In this document: positions 27,183 through 46,208 of the stretch, one piece after another
How the letters are laid out: each line of letters begins with the position of its first letter
How positions within the stretch are numbered: the first letter of the stretch is position 1
From: a virus
Length of the DNA stretch: 58,190 bases
Virus record (IMG/VR): IMGVR_UViG_3300042934_000137
Location: 1-58,190 of that record
Reading direction: 5' to 3' (one strand)
Notes under the pieces: model-generated
What the model was told of the DNA's origin: nothing
What the model saw: the letters and a program-made list of their open reading frames with translations, nothing else
The model's database searches: none
Made by a program: the position numbers and the translations under genes

Positions 27183-27425
27183 TCAGGAATTCACAACAAC
27201 TTTGCGGTGAACTCCTGATGCATTGATACGAACAATCTCTTCAATCGCATCTTCGAGAGCTTGATCCTGATCTGCATCAGACAAAGCTTCCGAAGTACGA
27301 ACGATCCTTGCCTGTAGTGCCAGCGTGTGGTGGCCAGCAGCTGTGTCATAGGCATACCACTCATCGAACTGAGTAGAAGGATCGAATGGATTGTCCACTG
27401 TAGTGAGCATGTGTTTGGCCATCAA
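27183..27425 (-). CDS. Hypothetical protein after RNAP-like gene
   Basis: This encodes 80 residues. It starts MMAKHMLTTVDNPFDPSTQFDEWYA in parts and has an acidic helix (SDADQDQALEDAIEEIV). Its ATG overlaps the stop of the RNA polymerase-like gene, so the two are co-translated. This is a small phage protein of unknown role; a partner of the polymerase is possible. Confidence 0.6.
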   Translation of the reverse strand: MMAKHMLTTVDNPFDPSTQFDEWYAYDTAAGHHTLALQARIVRTSEALSDADQDQALEDAIEEIVRINASGVHRKVVVNS

Positions 27426-30118
27426 TCCTCCTCACTCAAGCTCTTCTGTAGAATGGACACTGAGACACCCAATTGTTCCGCGATCTCGCCCTGTGTGAAG
27501 CCTTGGTTAGCCATAGAGCGGGCACGAGCCATCATGCCACTACTCATGGTGGTGCTAGACCTAGGTGTAGCCAACTCCTTGATCCGCTCGATGTTGGCGT
27601 GAGTGAGAATCTGGTTCAGCTTGTGATTGCTGATAGCACCAGCTTGAATAGCATCCCACTCGGCATCAGTGATGTCGAAGTCGTCTTTGCCTGCACCTAC
27701 CCTAAGACGAGCCGTCTTCAGAGCTAAGAACTTAATCTTCTTCTCTTCAGACTTCTCCATGTCTGGATACTCAGCACGCTTGGCCTTGTATAGGGCGTTG
27801 GCTATGACCTGGGCTTGTCTTTCGAGGGGGGCGTTTCTGAGGGCGGCGTTCAACTTCTGATTGAGGGAGGCCACTTCCTTAGCATAGGCGGTCCTTGCTG
27901 AGGGAGAGTAGGGGATGTTCTTGATGGCCACCATGTTCTTACGTGCTTCGTTCCCCATACCCTTCAACTGGTTGGAGTGCTCAGCATAGATGGTCTCGAT
28001 GCGCGTCTTGTGTGGAGACACAAGCTTGAAAGCGTCATCGGTTTCAGCCAGGAGCTTCTTACCCCTGTCCATACGAAAGACCGTCTTACCAGAAGTTGGG
28101 TCTACGTATGTAGCGCCCGTCTCCGTGTAGATCTTCTTTCCCGTAACAGGGTCTACCTTGTAGCCCTGCTTTCGTTCGCGAACATCCACCTTTCGACCAG
28201 CCCTCGAGATGAGGGTTGCCGCACCACCAGTCTTCTTTCCCTGATACTTCTCCATGAGTGCAGGGATTCCGTTGTCCTTTGCAGACTGACGGTAATTGAG
28301 CTTGTGCTTTTCTGCGTCGATGACAACCATTGAATGACGGACTGCTCGAGCAAGTTCGTCAGCGTTGGCGCCACCGATGGTCATGTCTGTGATGAGGTTC
28401 GATACGATCCCCATCTGCATACCCTTTTCACGAGGCGTCATCAGCTTCATGCCAGGGTATTCCGGATACCGAGCCTTAGCGTCAAAGTCCTCAAGACCCT
28501 TTAGTGCAGGCGAGCTCTTGACTTTCCCGTGATTGTTCGGGATGACAAGGACTGTGTCCCCATCGAAGTCAGCGCCAGACAGTCGCTCAGCCACCCTGCT
28601 GTTGATGCCGATGGCATCGGTTGCATCCTTGAGGAGCTTCTTTGCTTGAGCATGGCGGTTGTTCACGGTGAGTTCAGGGATCTCGAAAGTTCCACCGTGA
28701 GGGAAGCGAACAAGAACTACGCGTTCACCATTCTTGAACGTGGGCGCGTAGACTTCAGTTTCCTTCAACGTGTTTACGGGAAGGATGACCTTGTTCGCCT
28801 GACGAGGAAGAGCCGCAGCCTTCAGATGTACTGCCGACGAATCGACATCATCAGCATAGGCCTCGAGCAACCGCTTCTTGACAGCGGGATTGTTGAGACT
28901 CATGATCTCGTCGAGTTCACGACGCTTTCGTTCAGCGGTCGCGGTCAGCTGTGTCTTAGCAAGGTTTGGACTCTGCTTAGACAGGAACTGTGACGACAGC
29001 GATCGAGACCACTGCTCCCAACTACCTTCCTCGTTCACCATGTTCATGACCGAGGTGACCTTCTTGCCGTCGGGCGTGGTGATCTGCCGACGAATAACAG
29101 CACCGAATGGGTTGTCTTCGTCGAGCTTCCCATCCTTCGTTGTCTGCATCTTCTTCAGAGCATCGAGTTTGTTACCCGTATTGCTCTTGTTCGTGTTGAA
29201 CATGAGATCAACGCCATCAGGCAGATCATCCTTGTACATCGCCATACCCTTGATGTAGTGCGTACCGTCAACAGCGATACGAACCTGAGCATAGCGAGCC
29301 TTACCCATCGACAGATCATTGACGCCAGGTCGGACATAAACAACACCGTCAGCGTCAGCGCCACCCTCTTCCTTGTAGCGAACCCCAACGCGCTTGGAAT
29401 CAATCGAGATCGGGGGCTTGATCGCCAGGAAGGACTTGCCTCCGTCATTTGAATATCCAGCAACGCTCTGGATCTTGTCGCGATTCTGAAAGACTTCGGC
29501 ATACTCGGTGCCGGGCTTAACCAAGACCTTCATCGTGGTCTCATGCCTCGTGCCCAGCTGCTGTACCTTTACGTAGTACAGCTTGTAGTCCTCTTCCTTA
29601 GTGAGGCGAGAAATAGCAGCTCGGAGTTTGGTGTCGCTGACGTTCATGTAGTGCTCGGTACCAGTACCGACGTCGAGATATCCCTTCTTCTCGACCTGGT
29701 CCTTGAGGAAGTTAGAGGTAGACTCCAGAACATCAACTCGAGCTTTTGCGCTCGGAGCGAGAAGAGCACGAACAGAGGATTCAGGAATCCCCATCTTCTC
29801 ACCAATCTTGACGTTGGACCATCCATGCTCCTTCAACCTCTGGGCCATGGAAATATCCGCGGCCTTCTTGGCGTTGCGAGCGATGGTTACGGCGTTGCGA
29901 AACTCCGTGGTCGTCCAGGGCTTTCCGTTCTCGGTGTAGAGAGACATGCCCTTAGCAATCTCTCCGTCACTCAGACCCTTTGACCGAAGATCGGCGACAG
30001 TGCCGAGAAAGTCTCGACCACGCTGTCCTGGATCCTCGCCGCTTCCCCACGGGTAGCGTCCCGATCGACGCAGGATGCCGTAGTGGGCGAGGTAGTTCTC
30101 CTCAGGGATGATCGCCAC
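27422..30118 (-). CDS. DFDGD-type RNA polymerase-like protein
   Basis: This encodes 898 residues. Residues 517-521 are DFDGD in LSGADFDGDTVLVIP, the metal-binding loop of double-psi-barrel RNA polymerases, preceded by VRFPHGG (469-475). A region at about 285-312 (YIKGMAMYKDDLPDGVD, NTNK) holds lysines as in a partner barrel. HTH-like segments lie at about 50-80, 96-120 and 872-892. The N-terminus LAHYGILRRSGRYPWGSG (10-27) is a degenerate form of the HYGVKGMKWGV tag. A single-subunit YonO/QDE-1-like polymerase is the best reading; activity is unproven. Confidence 0.7.
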   Translation of the reverse strand: MAIIPEENYLAHYGILRRSGRYPWGSGEDPGQRGRDFLGTVADLRSKGLSDGEIAKGMSLYTENGKPWTTTEFRNAVTIARNAKKAADISMAQRLKEHGWSNVKIGEKMGIPESSVRALLAPSAKARVDVLESTSNFLKDQVEKKGYLDVGTGTEHYMNVSDTKLRAAISRLTKEEDYKLYYVKVQQLGTRHETTMKVLVKPGTEYAEVFQNRDKIQSVAGYSNDGGKSFLAIKPPISIDSKRVGVRYKEEGGADADGVVYVRPGVNDLSMGKARYAQVRIAVDGTHYIKGMAMYKDDLPDGVDLMFNTNKSNTGNKLDALKKMQTTKDGKLDEDNPFGAVIRRQITTPDGKKVTSVMNMVNEEGSWEQWSRSLSSQFLSKQSPNLAKTQLTATAERKRRELDEIMSLNNPAVKKRLLEAYADDVDSSAVHLKAAALPRQANKVILPVNTLKETEVYAPTFKNGERVVLVRFPHGGTFEIPELTVNNRHAQAKKLLKDATDAIGINSRVAERLSGADFDGDTVLVIPNNHGKVKSSPALKGLEDFDAKARYPEYPGMKLMTPREKGMQMGIVSNLITDMTIGGANADELARAVRHSMVVIDAEKHKLNYRQSAKDNGIPALMEKYQGKKTGGAATLISRAGRKVDVRERKQGYKVDPVTGKKIYTETGATYVDPTSGKTVFRMDRGKKLLAETDDAFKLVSPHKTRIETIYAEHSNQLKGMGNEARKNMVAIKNIPYSPSARTAYAKEVASLNQKLNAALRNAPLERQAQVIANALYKAKRAEYPDMEKSEEKKIKFLALKTARLRVGAGKDDFDITDAEWDAIQAGAISNHKLNQILTHANIERIKELATPRSSTTMSSGMMARARSMANQGFTQGEIAEQLGVSVSILQKSLSEED

Positions 30119-36277: not shown

Positions 36278-36305
36278 CGAGGGGTCCTTTCGAGATATGG
36301 CGAAA

Positions 36306-36331
36306 CCCAAAACCCTTGTGGGGGTCTTGGG
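36306..36331 (-). terminator. Cassette hairpin
   Basis: CCCAAAACCC pairs with GGGTCTTGGG around a short TTGTG loop. It follows the small gene at 36339-36563. Confidence 0.6.
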
Positions 36332-36338
36332 CGTGAGA

Positions 36339-36563
36339 TCAGTACTCTCGTTCTTTGTGAAGCGTCTCGTATCGGTTTCGCACGTGGAAGTAGTCGTCAC
36401 TGGCAGCATCCCACCCAGCGCTGAACCCGGTCTTCCAACCAAGGTCGTCGGCCTCGCGAGTGGCGATTTCGATGTTCCTGGTGGCAATCCTCTGGGTGAT
36501 CAGGTAGGTGGCAATAATGCCGGTGACGAGCGCAACCACGGCAACAACGACGTAGAGCATCAT
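36339..36563 (-). CDS. Small membrane protein cassette
   Basis: This encodes 74 residues with an N-terminal membrane span (about 3-23) and a polar, charged C-terminus. The start is the first of two consecutive ATGs at 36563, preceded by AAAGGA. The longer reading runs through the promoter -10. It has its own promoter (36581-36611) and hairpin. Function is unknown. Confidence 0.65.
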   Translation of the reverse strand: MMLYVVVAVVALVTGIIATYLITQRIATRNIEIATREADDLGWKTGFSAGWDAASDDYFHVRNRYETLHKEREY

Positions 36564-36580
36564 AACGTCCTTTCGTAGGG

Positions 36581-36611
36581 TCTCATTATAAGCCATGTAT
36601 CCTACGCGAGG
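36581..36611 (-). promoter_or_regulatory. Promoter-like element P4
   Basis: TCGCG, ATACAT and TATAAT (36585-36590) are spaced at 10 bp, followed by GAGACCC. It precedes 36339-36563 with a leader of about 20 nt. Confidence 0.75.
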
Positions 36612-36616
36612 AAAAG

Positions 36617-36641
36617 CTAGAGCCCGTGTTAGGGGCCCTAG
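36617..36641 (-). terminator. Cassette hairpin
   Basis: CTAGAGCCC pairs with GGGCCCTAG around a GTGTTAG-type loop (one bulge), just downstream of the gene at 36649-36924. Confidence 0.6.
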
Positions 36642-36648
36642 TGGTGAT

Positions 36649-36924
36649 TCACTCCTGAGGGGTCTCGGGGTTGAACTTCTTAACGATCTCTTGAATCATC
36701 TCCTGGTTCTTCTGGTGTTGTTCGAGCAGGTTCTTAGAGAGCGAGGCGTTCATTCGCAAAGCGGCGATGATCTTGTAGACGTTCTCCTTCGGAAAGCCAT
36801 AGGCTTCCGCGGGCGTCTCAGTCATCAGTGCTTCGATCTTGTTCGCGATCTCGTTCCCGTCAGAAATGATCGAGTGGACCAGAGCCAGGGCGGTGAGGTC
36901 AGAGTCGATGTTAAAGTCCATCAT
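36649..36924 (-). CDS. Small helical cassette protein
   Basis: This encodes 91 residues, soluble and helical, starting MMDFNIDSDLTALALVHS. The C-terminal half is a charged helix rich in Gln/Asn (LLEQHQKNQEMIQEIVKK). The ATG follows AAAGGA. It has its own promoter and hairpin. Function is unknown. Confidence 0.65.
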   Translation of the reverse strand: MMDFNIDSDLTALALVHSIISDGNEIANKIEALMTETPAEAYGFPKENVYKIIAALRMNASLSKNLLEQHQKNQEMIQEIVKKFNPETPQE

Positions 36925-36942
36925 ATAATCCTTTCGGAGGGG

Positions 36943-36973
36943 TTTCATTATACTGCGTGTAATCCCCGCGAGG
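36943..36973 (-). promoter_or_regulatory. Promoter-like element P5
   Basis: TCGCG, TTACAC and TATAAT (36947-36952) keep the 10-bp spacing, followed by GAAACC. It drives 36649-36924. Confidence 0.75.
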
Positions 36974-37255
36974 TTATGCAGGATCGAAGTTTCGAATGAA
37001 CTGAGCGTGGCTGTAAACACCAAAACCGTACTTTTTTCTTACGATCCAGTCACCGACAAAGCCACGACCCTTACGCTCGTTTGGGTCCTTAATCGTCAAA
37101 ATATAGCGCTTCATCTTCCCCGTGGCGACGTTTCGGTTGTCCCTCTCTTCGATCTCTCGAACGTCCGACCCAGACCATCTGGCGAGCTCTTCCATGTTTT
37201 CTTCGGTGATTTGGAAGGCGTCTACGTAAACCGGCTTGAGTACAAAGCGAGCCAT
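36974..37255 (-). CDS. GDWIV-family small protein, paralogue 1
   Basis: This encodes 93 residues from the ATG at 37255, preceded by AAGGGA. KPVYVDAFQITEENMEELARW and VGDWIVRKKYGFGVYSHAQF in parts match the proteins at 42931, 45408 and 46409. The family pattern is an N-terminal A.QIT.EN segment, a W near 30 and a GDW/GDY motif near the end. These are common phage proteins of unknown role. Confidence 0.7.
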   Translation of the reverse strand: MARFVLKPVYVDAFQITEENMEELARWSGSDVREIEERDNRNVATGKMKRYILTIKDPNERKGRGFVGDWIVRKKYGFGVYSHAQFIRNFDPA

Positions 37256-37281
37256 TAGAAATATCCCTTCGAACAACGAAA

Positions 37282-37306
37282 CCCAAAACCCGTGTAGGGT
37301 CTTGGG
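37282..37306 (-). terminator. Cassette hairpin
   Basis: CCCAAAACCC pairs with GGGTCTTGGG around a GTGTA loop after the gene at 37323-37529. Confidence 0.6.
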
Positions 37307-37322
37307 CGTGAGGTTGATGGGG

Positions 37323-37529
37323 TCAGTTGCTCTCGTTCAGCTTCGTCTCGAGCTTCTTGAGGCCGACGTACATCACTCCCATGGCTGCAGCACTGAGGAC
37401 AGCTCCCGTAGCGAAGGCCGTCGCGTGGACGATCTTCTGGTGTTTGGGGCTGGACTCGTACTTCAGTCGCTGGTTGGTGACGAAGTCGGACTCGATGAAG
37501 CTCTCGGGGAGCAGATCAACGATTCGCAT
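37323..37529 (-). CDS. Small single-span membrane cassette protein
   Basis: This encodes 68 residues. A polar N-terminus precedes a span (about 36-58, HATAFATGAVLSAAAMGVMY) and a short Lys/Glu tail. The ATG follows AAAGGA. It has its own promoter and hairpin. Confidence 0.65.
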   Translation of the reverse strand: MRIVDLLPESFIESDFVTNQRLKYESSPKHQKIVHATAFATGAVLSAAAMGVMYVGLKKLETKLNESN

Positions 37530-37548
37530 TATGATTCCTTTCATAGGG

Positions 37549-37579
37549 TCTCATTATACGCCGTGTAATATATGCGAAA
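37549..37579 (-). promoter_or_regulatory. Promoter-like element P6
   Basis: TCGCA, TTACAC and TATAAT (37553-37558) at 10-bp spacing, followed by GAGACCC. It drives 37323-37529. Confidence 0.78.
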
Positions 37580-37604
37580 CCCAAAGCCCCCGTAGGGGCC
37601 TGGG
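37580..37604 (-). terminator. Cassette hairpin
   Basis: CCCAAAGCCCC pairs with GGGGCCTGGG around CGTA after the gene at 37612-37860. Its far arm abuts the TCGCA block of the next promoter. Confidence 0.6.
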
Positions 37605-37611
37605 CATGAGA

Positions 37612-37860
37612 TCAGTTGTTGGTCAGATTGGGGTCTCTCATGAGGATGAGGTCGACGCCCTTGATGGTGAAGACTCCGACGTAGCCCGCGTGCAGTCGAC
37701 GCAGTCCATCCTGCGTCACCTCGAGCAGGATCTTGTTGTCGTAGTGCTTGTGCATTGCGAACGCAGTGATTCCTGCCGCGGTGACGCCGGCGGTTGCGGC
37801 GATGACGATGGTCTTGTTGTCGGTGAGCTTCTTCTTGAGGGCGAGCAGCTTCTCGTTCAT
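37612..37860 (-). CDS. Small membrane cassette protein
   Basis: This encodes 82 residues. The hydrophobic segment TIVIAATAGVTAAGITAFA (about 17-35) follows a basic N-terminus; the C-terminal half is a soluble beta-type domain. The ATG follows AAAGGA. Function is unknown. Confidence 0.65.
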   Translation of the reverse strand: MNEKLLALKKKLTDNKTIVIAATAGVTAAGITAFAMHKHYDNKILLEVTQDGLRRLHAGYVGVFTIKGVDLILMRDPNLTNN

Positions 37861-37884
37861 GACGATTCCTTTCGTAGGATATGG

Positions 37885-37915
37885 TCTCACTATACTCCGT
37901 GTAATATCTGCGAAA
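37885..37915 (-). promoter_or_regulatory. Promoter-like element P7
   Basis: TCGCA, TTACAC and TATAGT (37889-37894) at 10-bp spacing, followed by GAGACC. It drives 37612-37860. Confidence 0.75.
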
Positions 37916-37940
37916 CCTAAAACCCTTGTGGGGTTCTAGG
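37916..37940 (-). terminator. Cassette hairpin
   Basis: CCTAAAACCC pairs with GGGTTCTAGG around TTGT after the gene at 37948-38127. Confidence 0.6.
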
Positions 37941-37947
37941 CGTGAGA

Positions 37948-38127
37948 TCACTGTCGAGGGATACCGATATAAGTCCAAGCACGAACGTGAGCGAACTCGC
38001 CGAGGGCTTCACAGGCTTCTTGCAACGTGTCATAGAATCCGACAATGCGTCGGGATTCTGAATGAATCGTGCAACCATCCTCGTCCCACTCGACGACGTT
38101 CGAGTCGTCTCGGTCCTTGTTGATCAT
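37948..38127 (-). CDS. Small soluble cassette protein
   Basis: This encodes 59 residues: MINKDRDDSNVVEWDEDG, then ESRRIVGFYDTLQEACEAL and a C-terminal IGIPRQ. It is acidic, with no membrane span. The ATG follows GAAGGAG. It resembles small phage DUF proteins, but no function is assigned. Confidence 0.65.
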   Translation of the reverse strand: MINKDRDDSNVVEWDEDGCTIHSESRRIVGFYDTLQEACEALGEFAHVRAWTYIGIPRQ

Positions 38128-38148
38128 AATGGTCTCCTTCATATAGGG

Positions 38149-38179
38149 TCTCATTATAAGCCGTGTATCTCATGCGAAA
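38149..38179 (-). promoter_or_regulatory. Promoter-like element P8
   Basis: TCGCA, ATACAC and TATAAT (38153-38158) at 10-bp spacing, followed by GAGACCC. It drives 37948-38127. Confidence 0.78.
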
Positions 38180-38919: not shown

Positions 38920-39309
38920 CTACCAGAACTCGCCTGTGTAGAACCTGAACCCATTCGCATCAAGCCAACCGCGGCCCATCTGGATGTCGCCATCCAAATA
39001 TCGCTGACCGTCCGGACCTGCTACCCAGGGCTTCTGCGCCTCGAGCCAGGCGATCGGATCGGGAATCAGCTCCTTGCGCTCAGTCCAGAGCTCGCCAGGA
39101 ATCTCGGTGAAGACGCGGCGCCAATCCTCGACAGATATGACGGCGAATCCGACCGGAGATTCCGTGTCGTAACCCCAGTCGGGGTAATCCTCGTTCAGGA
39201 GCTTGTGTGGATACGCCTGCCAGGTACCAGACGACTTCCCCACGTGGATCTCTTCGTAGCGGTTGCAGGAACCGCACTGACGGAACCGCCAGTAGTAGTT
39301 GGTCCCCAT
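38920..39309 (-). CDS. Phage protein with N-terminal zinc knuckle
   Basis: This encodes 129 residues. MGTNYYWRFRQCGSCNRYEE then HVGKSSGTWQAYPH has Cys, His and Trp positions like a widespread phage protein. The remainder is helical with FTEIPGELWTERKELIPDP. It overlaps the upstream gene by one base. Function is unknown. Confidence 0.65.
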   Translation of the reverse strand: MGTNYYWRFRQCGSCNRYEEIHVGKSSGTWQAYPHKLLNEDYPDWGYDTESPVGFAVISVEDWRRVFTEIPGELWTERKELIPDPIAWLEAQKPWVAGPDGQRYLDGDIQMGRGWLDANGFRFYTGEFW

Positions 39310-39791
39310 CAGAGAGTGACCCGGATCAGGAACTCCATGTCGGTCTCCTTCGGTTTATGGCAGTTGCAGTCTACCTGCTGACACGCCCGAGAGAAGTAAC
39401 CGAGGCACTTGTCGCAGCAACCCTTGTCGCAGCAACCCTTGTCGCCGACCGGGATCATGCTGTCCAGCTTGACGATCCAGGAGTCGCTCTTGCTGCATCG
39501 CCGCTTTCGCTTAGTACCGTCCGCGTACGTGGCGATGAATACGAAAGTATGTTCGGTGAGCCTGACGCTGTCGATCATGCACCAGCGGTTGATCTCCCGA
39601 AGCCGGTACAGGTTCATCTCGGCTGACGGAGACTGGGGATCCAACTCCACGAGGCTCTCTCGGTGCTCTGGACCGTCGATCAGAACGATCATGCCGTCCT
39701 TGAGCTCGGGGCTCTCGAGCAGATCCTCGGTGTCGGGGGTCATCTCGTAGTACTTACTGACGAAACCCTCGGGGATGCGGGACAGGTCCAT
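39309..39791 (-). CDS. Cys-rich C-terminal protein
   Basis: This encodes 160 residues from the ATG at 39791. The N-terminal two-thirds are a mixed fold (GMIVLIDGPEHRESLVEL). The C-terminus has a tandem (DKGCC)2DKC followed by CQQVDCNCH, probably metal-binding. The 15-bp DNA repeat encoding DKGCC is perfect in part, suggesting recent slippage. The tRNA-like element lies just upstream. Confidence 0.6.
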   Translation of the reverse strand: MDLSRIPEGFVSKYYEMTPDTEDLLESPELKDGMIVLIDGPEHRESLVELDPQSPSAEMNLYRLREINRWCMIDSVRLTEHTFVFIATYADGTKRKRRCSKSDSWIVKLDSMIPVGDKGCCDKGCCDKCLGYFSRACQQVDCNCHKPKETDMEFLIRVTL

Positions 39792-39823
39792 CTTTGTGCT
39801 CCTTCGAATATAGGGGTCTTGAA

Positions 39824-39942
39824 CTGGAGAGCTAGTAGCGTGCGCCGCTACACCATACGCATTGATAGCCCGACGCGAGACAGGCATTCCAATCTGGCTC
39901 TGCGTAAGTTGGGATTCGAACCCAAAACCTCTACTAGCCCAG
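39824..39942 (-). ncRNA. Circularly permuted tRNA-like RNA
   Basis: On the minus strand GCTAGTAG (39938-39931) is followed by a 5-nt variable loop, T-arm TTGGG/TTCGAAT/CCCAA, acceptor strand TTACGCA, a 39-nt loop, matching acceptor TGCGTA, a D-arm GTG/TAGCGGCG/CAC and CTACTAGC (39838-39831), which pairs perfectly with the first block. CTGG/CCAG extend the closing helix with a 3-nt bulge. The order (3' half, then 5' half) is that of a permuted tRNA. There is no U33 and no clear anticodon, so it may be a processing signal rather than a decoding tRNA. Confidence 0.6.
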
Positions 39943-39945
39943 GAA

Positions 39946-39975
39946 GGGGCACGGAACGTGAATATCCCGTACCCC
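39946..39975 (-). terminator. Hairpin after band-7 gene
   Basis: GGGGCACGG pairs with CCGTACCCC (one mismatch). A related GGTTGGGG...CCCCTTCCTGG frame recurs at 42.89 kb, so both are probably copies of one terminator type. Confidence 0.65.
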
Positions 39976-39982
39976 AACCTGA

Positions 39983-41050
39983 TCAGTTCTTGGGCGTGTT
40001 ACTGCCCGCGTCGACGATCACGGAAGAGCCGCCGCTCATCATGCAGAAGCCCGGCTCCTTGCCGATCTCCTTCGCCGCCTGGATGCAGTTGGCCTGGTTC
40101 ACCGCGGGATCCTTGAGGGACTCCTGGAGAGCCTTGTTGGCCTTGGACTTGGCGGCGTTGGTCGCCTCCTCCTCAGCTGCCAGGCGGGTCTTCGCCTTCT
40201 GGGCCTGGACGTTCGAGATCGACTGGTCCGTCGCGTCGTCGTAGTCCGGAACCGCCAGATCGACAGACATGATGTTGAGCTCACTGTCGAACTCACGTCG
40301 CAACTCGTCCAGGGCCAGCTGGTTCAGCGTGCCCAGGGACTGGTTCTTCTCCTCGATGAGCGGGTTGTGTCCGGAGAACACCTTCCCCAACGCCACTCGG
40401 GAGGAGCTGTAGACGAAGTTCTTGGTGAGTCGCTCGAAGGAACGGTAGGTCTTGAACAACTCCACCGCGTTCTTCCGCTCGGCCTCGGTGCCCGCCTTCA
40501 TCTGCCAGGCCACCACGCCGTTCAGACAGGCCGTCGCCTGACCCTCGAGCTTGACCTGGATGCAGGGGTACTCCTTCTTGTCCAGGTCCTCCTCGTTGTT
40601 GCCCTTGCCGTTGAACCGCAGGAACTGACGGGTTCCGTCGAACTCCGTCTTGATCTCCCACGGCGCCTTGGCGTGGAATCCGTTGCTGTAGGCGGACTGC
40701 GGCTTGCCGAACGAGGTCATGATGCCAACCTGGTTCGTCCCGACCACCACGAAGAGACTCATGATGAACAGGAAGACCGCCACGCCACCCACAACGCCGA
40801 CGCCCCACCCGAGACCACGTCGCATGTAGTGCGTTTCGACGTTGTCCTTCTCGTGCTCGAACTTGCTCTGGTTCCAGGCCTTGACTGCCGTGGTGTACGG
40901 ATCGCCGTAGACATCCCGACGCACCCCCTCGAAGTCAGCCCGGTCGGGCTTCTCCTCGGTGAACGGGGTGACCTTGACTCGGGTACGAACGATCCAGATG
41001 ATGAGAGCCATCACCGCAACGATCATGGCCCAGAGGAACCAAGCGTCCAT
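39983..41050 (-). CDS. Band-7/SPFH-domain membrane protein
   Basis: This encodes 355 residues with two membrane segments (about 5-20 and 83-105), a VGTNQVGIMTSFGKPQS start of a band-7 domain (about 105-280), and an Ala/Glu-rich helix (AQKAKTRLAAEEEATNAAKS). Stomatin/prohibitin relatives build membrane microdomains. Such genes occur in Streptomyces phages; the role in infection is not established. A GC-rich, well-expressed coding style is seen. Confidence 0.82.
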   Translation of the reverse strand: MDAWFLWAMIVAVMALIIWIVRTRVKVTPFTEEKPDRADFEGVRRDVYGDPYTTAVKAWNQSKFEHEKDNVETHYMRRGLGWGVGVVGGVAVFLFIMSLFVVVGTNQVGIMTSFGKPQSAYSNGFHAKAPWEIKTEFDGTRQFLRFNGKGNNEEDLDKKEYPCIQVKLEGQATACLNGVVAWQMKAGTEAERKNAVELFKTYRSFERLTKNFVYSSSRVALGKVFSGHNPLIEEKNQSLGTLNQLALDELRREFDSELNIMSVDLAVPDYDDATDQSISNVQAQKAKTRLAAEEEATNAAKSKANKALQESLKDPAVNQANCIQAAKEIGKEPGFCMMSGGSSVIVDAGSNTPKN

Positions 41051-45997: not shown

Positions 45998-46021
45998 GTT
46001 CCTCCTTAAGAAGAAATGCCG

Positions 46022-46054
46022 AGAGGCGGGCAGGTCCGTACCCCACCCGCCTCT
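46022..46054 (-). terminator. Hairpin in 46.0 kb leader
   Basis: AGAGGCGGG pairs perfectly with CCCGCCTCT around a 15-nt loop; GCCG/CGGC can extend it. It precedes the gene at 45680-45997 in the transcript. Confidence 0.55.
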
Positions 46055-46064
46055 ACCGGCGTTA

Positions 46065-46188
46065 CGCTTGAGATGTAAGCAAGCGGTGTTACCAGTCCCT
46101 ATCGACAGCAGGGTAGGGCGACCCTGTGGGCAAACCAGGTCTCTAATCCGGCTCTGTCGTGAAGCGGCTAGGTATCGAGCCTAACCGC
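46065..46188 (-). ncRNA. Multi-hairpin intergenic RNA candidate
   Basis: Pairs seen are CGCTTG 46065-46070 with 46080-46085; CGACAG 46103-46108 with CTGTCG 46154-46159; inside it CAGGGT 46109-46114 with 46121-46126; and a 9-bp T-arm-like hairpin 46164-46172/46180-46188 with loop CTCGATA on the minus strand. The 195-base gap has no gene. It may be a structured leader or small RNA. Confidence 0.45.
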
Positions 46189-46208
46189 CCCCTGAGGGGA
46201 TCTAACCC

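Follow-up and report, generated by a model that had tools for sequence, protein, structure and literature searches.

A putative Y-RNA-type tRNA-mimic module beside a band-7 gene in an actinobacteriophage-like genome

Known RNAs with T-arm, acceptor and D-arm in permuted order

Circularly permuted tRNA genes are known from six unicellular algae and the archaeon Thermofilum pendens, where the transcripts mature by archaeal/eukaryotic BHB splicing (PMC3978253). YrlA RNAs, 90–150 nt in length, consist of a basal stem formed by the 5′ and 3′ ends together with D, T and acceptor arms (PMC8394870). Permuted tRNA genes are not alone in having a T-arm followed by an acceptor hairpin and then a D-arm; the YrlA-type tRNA-mimic module is laid out in this way as well. 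Chen et al., writing in RNA in 2014, reportedly described, from many bacteria and phages, Y RNAs that have tRNA-like domains and lie near Ro60.

Such modules are common in actinophages. The Ro-like (TROVE) protein of Streptomyces phage Bmoc matched 341 records, and near the Ro genes of actinophages T-arms were observed outside ordinary tRNAs, each with an acceptor hairpin and then a D-arm after it and with GGYCGRA...TCGGTTAYC ahead of it. In ET08, for example, the module reads GCGGG TTCGAAT CCCGT - CAGGTG...CACCTG - TA GCTC AGTGGTA GAGC, i.e. a permuted tRNA outline with the opening in the anticodon arm. Matches to TCGGTTAYC N10-40 GGTTCGAATCC were found in 106 viral contigs; among the tested records with this combination of Ro motif and T-arm, 42 of 48 encode Ro60 (TROVE), and thus most of the matching contigs carry Y RNAs. 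Modules of the YrlA type were identified in ET08, Myrna, Cashline, Boopy, Gilson, Blueeyedbeauty and Zooman and in about 100 IMG/VR contigs. Near actinophage Ro60 genes, these Y-RNA-like modules can form arrays, with up to several per locus (L049–L055 and L074–L175).

A covariance model built from six modules (R1) identified 164 Y-RNA-like modules in 100 phage contigs at E ≤ 1e-5. In the window, that is, the whole 58,190-base virus record analyzed here, R1 gave a match (E = 3.8e-4) whose alignment covered mainly the T-arm of the element described below, and a second model (R2) was therefore built from 150 aligned modules of the 164, with the window left out. The stems of these 150 modules covary strongly, with changes on both sides in 571 cells compared to 159 in shuffles; 97.8% of the cells were paired, against 39–56% in slid controls, the alignment having been fitted to the structure, which favours pairing.

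The element and its surroundings

By sequence, the genome is actinobacteriophage-like; its DNA polymerase has about 62% identity or less to those of Gordonia, Rhodococcus, Arthrobacter and Streptomyces phages and up to 69% identity to IMG/VR contigs. The element is located on the minus strand, in an intergenic stretch of 199 nt (39792–39990) between a band-7 (SPFH) gene and the gene that follows on this strand, for which no family was found in Pfam or PHROG (Table 1). An open frame with a TTG start (39309–39977; ORF list) crosses the element and enters this next gene. Elsewhere in the window, positions 36302–38177 contain five copies of a 42-nt intergenic repeat (GGTCTCATTATA...GTGTAAT) and four copies of a 36-nt hairpin-like repeat (CCCAAAACCC...GGGTCTTGGG), possibly promoter/terminator pairs between small genes. 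An 898-aa protein of PHROG 4291 (27422–30118, minus strand), annotated as an RNA-dependent RNA polymerase, is possibly a phage-type single-subunit RNA polymerase.

Along the minus strand, from 39942 to 39824, the element consists of a helix strand, variable region, T-arm, acceptor 3′ strand, cap, acceptor 5′ strand, D-arm and second helix strand, and reads GCTAGTAG - AGGTT - TTGGG TTCGAAT CCCAA - CTTACGCA - 39 nt - TGCGTATG - GTGT AGCGGC GCAC - G - CTACTAGC. A preliminary description of the locus had recognized in it a T-arm with correct variable-region spacing, an acceptor with a single mismatch, an 8-bp helix in place of the anticodon stem and, overall, the outline of a permuted tRNA; all the pairings it named are present in the sequence, and the outline is above chance expectation. 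What that description missed is that YrlA Y RNAs have, as the standard layout of their tRNA-like module, T-arm, acceptor and D-arm in this very order.

Table 1 Coordinates of the element and of the flanking features in the window.
Feature	Position	Strand	Basis or remark
SPFH/Band-7 membrane protein gene, directly upstream of element	39983..41050	(-)	Pfam Band_7 E=2.3e-13; PHROG 200
Outer stem strand GAACTG, overlapping band-7 stop codon	39984..39989	(-)	Pairs with CAGTTC 39826-39821
Strong hairpin CAGG-TT-GGGGTACGGGAT...GTTCCGTGCCCC-TT-CCTG, just upstream of module	39940..39981	(-)	Minimum-energy fold of 39792-39990
Closing helix, 5′ strand GCTAGTAG	39931..39938	(-)	8/8 pairs with 39831-39838
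Variable region AGGTT, canonical 5 nt	39926..39930	(-)	Sequence; R2 model positions 1-5
T-arm TTGGG TTCGAAT CCCAA	39909..39925	(-)	Perfect stem, consensus T-loop; R1/R2 match
Acceptor 3′ strand CTTACGCA	39901..39908	(-)	7/8 pairs with 39854-39861, one T-T mismatch
Acceptor-hairpin cap, 39 nt (intervening sequence under a permuted-tRNA reading)	39862..39900	(-)	
Acceptor 5′ strand TGCGTATG	39854..39861	(-)	Pairing; R2 alignment
D-arm GTGT AGCGGC GCAC, short loop with GG	39840..39853	(-)	Sequence; R2 alignment
Closing helix, 3′ strand CTACTAGC	39831..39838	(-)	8/8 pairs
TCT bulge and CCAG, can pair with CTGG (39942-39939)	39824..39830	(-)	Alternative to outer stem
Next gene, 161 aa, ATG about 27 nt past element	39309..39794	(-)	ORF list

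Read as a tRNA, GCTAGTAG is the 3′ strand of the anticodon stem, lengthened by 3 bp. When the element is read in the canonical register, its 5-nt variable region, its T-arm, its D-stem and position 26 are those of a normal tRNA; position 33 would be G, and there is no anticodon loop. The absence of U33 noted previously applies to this register, U33 being found only in a non-canonical reading by ARAGORN. The acceptor comprises 5–6 bp in the register that provides positions 8–9, with about two bases lost, and the D-loop, at 6 nt, is about one base short. The 5′ half can accordingly be written as GCGTA(2 nt lost)TG GTGT AGCGGC(1 nt lost)GCAC, and the R2 alignment agrees.

For the 123-nt element alone, the minimum-energy fold lies in the ordinary range (z = −1.1) and lacks the T-arm, the tRNA-like fold being 3.5 kcal/mol above it. 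The 199-nt intergenic stretch as a whole is unusually structured (z = −3.8, 0 of 200 shuffles), and its predicted fold pairs GAACTG with CAGTTC and includes the 8-bp helix. The CTGG/CCAG pairing previously proposed beyond a 3-nt bulge is present in the sequence but competes with a stronger fold, namely the hairpin 39981–39940 enclosed by the outer stem; in that fold, the hairpin uses the bases of CTGG.

Chance, tRNA-derived and Y-RNA-type explanations

Ordinary intergenic or coding sequence might resemble a tRNA by chance, and the open frame through the element is compatible with this explanation. We scanned simulated sequence for a perfect T-arm with consensus loop, an acceptor with at most one mismatch and a 4-bp D-arm with GG in the loop. 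In 40 Mb, 7 matches were found, about 0.02 per window when both strands are counted. The closing helix reached 5 bp in none of them, and the element is the only place where it comes to 7 or more; given that the rules were fixed after the element had been seen, the scan is supporting rather than formal evidence. When the halves of 167 real phage tRNAs were mis-matched, acceptor complementarity of at least 6 and closing complementarity of at least 7 occurred together in 8 of 27,722 pairings. Complementarity of both kinds is so rare among unrelated halves that the two halves of the element most likely belong to one structure. Together with the R2 match (E = 1.6e-5) and the folding of the intergenic stretch, the scan argues against chance, which we consider quite improbable.

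Neither ARAGORN on the window as it stands nor Rfam reported anything at the element. On a duplicated segment, which places the 5′ half before the 3′ half, ARAGORN called a tRNA-Arg(CCT) with an intron, a 3-bp D-stem and a non-canonical register. Applied to duplicated 200-nt tiles of 5.8 Mb of Markov sequence, the same procedure produced 7 loci (about 0.07 chance loci per window), so that the call alone is weak evidence and this rate is itself a point for the chance explanation, as is one further, poorer match at about 46 kb. We rejected that second match as a chance one that depends on a tile boundary and a strong hairpin. The GC-rich hairpin in question (GAGGCGGG...CCCGCCTC, within 46001–46200, minus strand) lies ahead of a Shine-Dalgarno sequence and is the source of the false permuted-tRNA call.

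The element could also be a functional circularly permuted or two-piece (permuted-tmRNA-like) tRNA, whereby RNase P and RNase Z would remove the cap and the ends would join at the anticodon. The order 3′ half, spacer, 5′ half is the expected one, and both halves pair. The 39-nt spacer falls within the 1–74 bp known for permuted tRNA genes, and the 8-bp helix, 3-nt bulge and 4-bp helix resemble the relaxed hBH splicing motif (PMC3978253). If the 3′ half is taken to start at TTCCTGG, ARAGORN even reads an anticodon arm with U33; however, this reading requires, in addition to the 3-bp D-stem, an 8-nt variable loop, whereas the canonical one has G33 and no anticodon. Further, in the canonical register the acceptor is below the canonical 7 bp and the D-loop below 7 nt, CTGG is taken by the upstream hairpin, and permuted tRNAs are known only from the algae and the archaeon mentioned above (PMC3978253). 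Considering the lack of U33 in the canonical register and the short acceptor and D-loop, it is unlikely that the element works as a permuted tRNA, and we rate this as very improbable. BHB endonuclease is not known in bacteria, nor is BHB splicing known in bacteria or their phages, which counts against it too. The Rfam models of tmRNA and permuted tmRNA had no match in the window.

An isolated 3′ half of a tRNA in a phage often represents the core of an attP site. We rejected an attP derived from the 3′ end of a tRNA gene of the host, given that GGGTTCGAATCCCAACTTACGC has no exact match among the 84,980 species of bacteria and archaea whose genomes were searched and that no host tRNA was found to share 30 nt or more across 39938–39901; nor would an attP be expected to carry a D-arm half together with its matching acceptor. 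Among the window ORFs of at least 180 aa, no integrase was noticed on inspection. This origin appears extremely improbable.

The main rival is a relic of a tRNA gene or array, i.e. tandem copies of one tRNA beside the band-7 gene that lost their outer halves, so that a 3′ half now precedes a 5′ half, and have no present function. The genomic context in other phages is consistent with such an origin: in Rhodococcus phage Grayson a tRNA lies about 40 bp downstream of the band-7 gene, in Karimac the band-7 gene adjoins tRNA-Asn, and in Bongo it is close to seven tRNAs. So is the element itself, with its canonical variable region, its tRNA-like D-arm and an acceptor and D-loop that look partly lost. 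Band-7 genes of some actinophages (L070, L048 and L073) are located in or beside tRNA arrays, and in Bongo a gene for RtcB RNA ligase adjoins; the band-7 genes of Sixama and Kudefre are without a tRNA-array neighbourhood. However, pairing is kept in all arms of the element, acceptor and closing complementarity would rarely arise together from unrelated halves, and tRNA anticodon loops would rarely give a closing helix of 8 perfect bp. This helix and the G33 of the canonical register argue against simple decay. On balance, a relic is possible but unlikely.

The R2 model aligned the whole module of the window end to end (28.1 bits), which was the top match in the window. Outside tRNA loci, related phage DNA (711 kb) gave no match above 18.0 bits. 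Neighbouring ordinary tRNAs in arrays scored 20–54 bits; the score alone does not separate a mimic from tRNA halves, because a T-arm followed by the D-arm of the next tRNA looks similar. At the element, the matching acceptor and closing helices, with the missing halves not there, argue against plain tandem tRNAs. The module order and stem geometry, which match those of Y RNAs beside Ro60 genes, and the R2 match suggest a Ro-free Y-RNA (YrlA)-type tRNA-mimic module with a putative function, an interpretation to which we give about an even chance. A mimic rather than a tRNA is also supported by the perfect closing helix, longer than an anticodon stem, and by the lack of U33 in the canonical register. 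Of the options raised in the preliminary description, a tRNA mimic thus fits the module layout and the R2 match, and support for a true permuted tRNA gene is lacking.

Homologues of the element were sought by exact patterns in the viral and genome collections, from which near-identical records may be missing, and none was found; among 36 related phages no orthologous locus was identified, and the band-7 gene has one weak match. Judged by these searches, the element is a singleton in the collections covered, and the covariance in related phages envisaged as a check on it is lacking for want of a homologue. Two related phages were observed to share another intergenic RNA (L016:4125–4272 and L022:4197–4345). 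Its closing stem, AGAAGAG/CTCTTCT, has T runs behind it, its internal hairpins show compensatory changes, and it contains a perfect tRNA T-arm; it matched no Rfam family and matched R2 weakly, at 18.0 bits in L016 and through the T-arm alone in L022. A match to the Pistol ribozyme just above the Rfam cut-off was also detected (L022:18001–18066), near two ordinary tRNA genes.

Possible role and comparison with known systems

If the element is a tRNA-mimic module, a closing helix would stand in for the anticodon arm, with the T-arm, the capped acceptor hairpin and the D-arm of the RNA folded around it, and the T-loop and D-loop could form a tRNA-like elbow. In the most likely mechanism, the RNA would be co-transcribed with the band-7 gene. 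By analogy with YrlA, a ligand of PNPase and a substrate for modification by TruB and DusA, host tRNA-handling proteins would bind the RNA and perhaps modify or trim it. In the phage, such an RNA might act as a Ro-independent recruiter or decoy, or as a processing mark on the transcript of the band-7 operon. A Ro-free mimic would mean that the tRNA-like module is useful apart from a Ro60 tether, and this phage would be a place to test it. A tRNA or tRNA-like RNA of the phage that is genuinely permuted, possibly in two pieces, with the cap cut by RNase P and RNase Z, and that acts independently of Ro60 appears improbable to us; were it real, no RNA of this kind except tmRNA would previously have been known from bacteria or their viruses. 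Wherever a T-arm precedes a D-arm in the genome of a bacterium or phage, Y RNAs should be considered before a permuted tRNA is called.

As far as the sequence indicates, the element is not a full Y RNA. The Ro motif TCGGTTAYC is absent from positions 39790–40130, the best match having 3 mismatches and lying inside the band-7 coding sequence. No Ro60/TROVE gene was found in the phage genome (a host Ro60 is possible) or in the 36 related records, and a Ro60 query found no relatives in the genome contig collection. The Rfam model of YrlA (RF02553) had no match in the window even at E < 10; this is a weak test because Bmoc, one tested phage with a Ro gene and Y-RNA-like modules, also gave no match above the cut-off.

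Compared to permuted two-piece tmRNA (RF04321, tmRNA_permuted), the element shares inverted acceptor halves and a removable spacer, but it is without the G3-U70 pair, has an intact 4-bp D-stem and shows no identified tag reading frame. With circularly permuted tRNA genes it has in common the order 3′ half, spacer, 5′ half and the spacer length; a possible bulge-helix at the junction (3-nt bulge and 4-bp helix) is present on one side and competes with a stronger fold. In contrast to those genes, the element is without an anticodon loop or U33 in the canonical register, and its acceptor and D-loop are degenerate.

The YrlA-type Y RNAs of actinophages and the element have the same order of variable region, T-arm, acceptor hairpin and D-arm, as well as the T-loop TTCGAAT, and the D-arm of one of these Y RNAs (that of L118, tggtgtagcggcagcac) is near-identical to that of the element. 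Both are intergenic, with 5′ and 3′ ends joined by pairing, which for the element is predicted. They differ in that the 8-bp closing helix of the element sits directly on the module and its acceptor cap is 39 nt rather than about 6 nt long (median 6 nt, range 2–53, in the 150 phage modules), and the place of the Ro-motif segment of Y RNAs is taken, inside the outer stem GAACTG/CAGTTC, by the strong hairpin.
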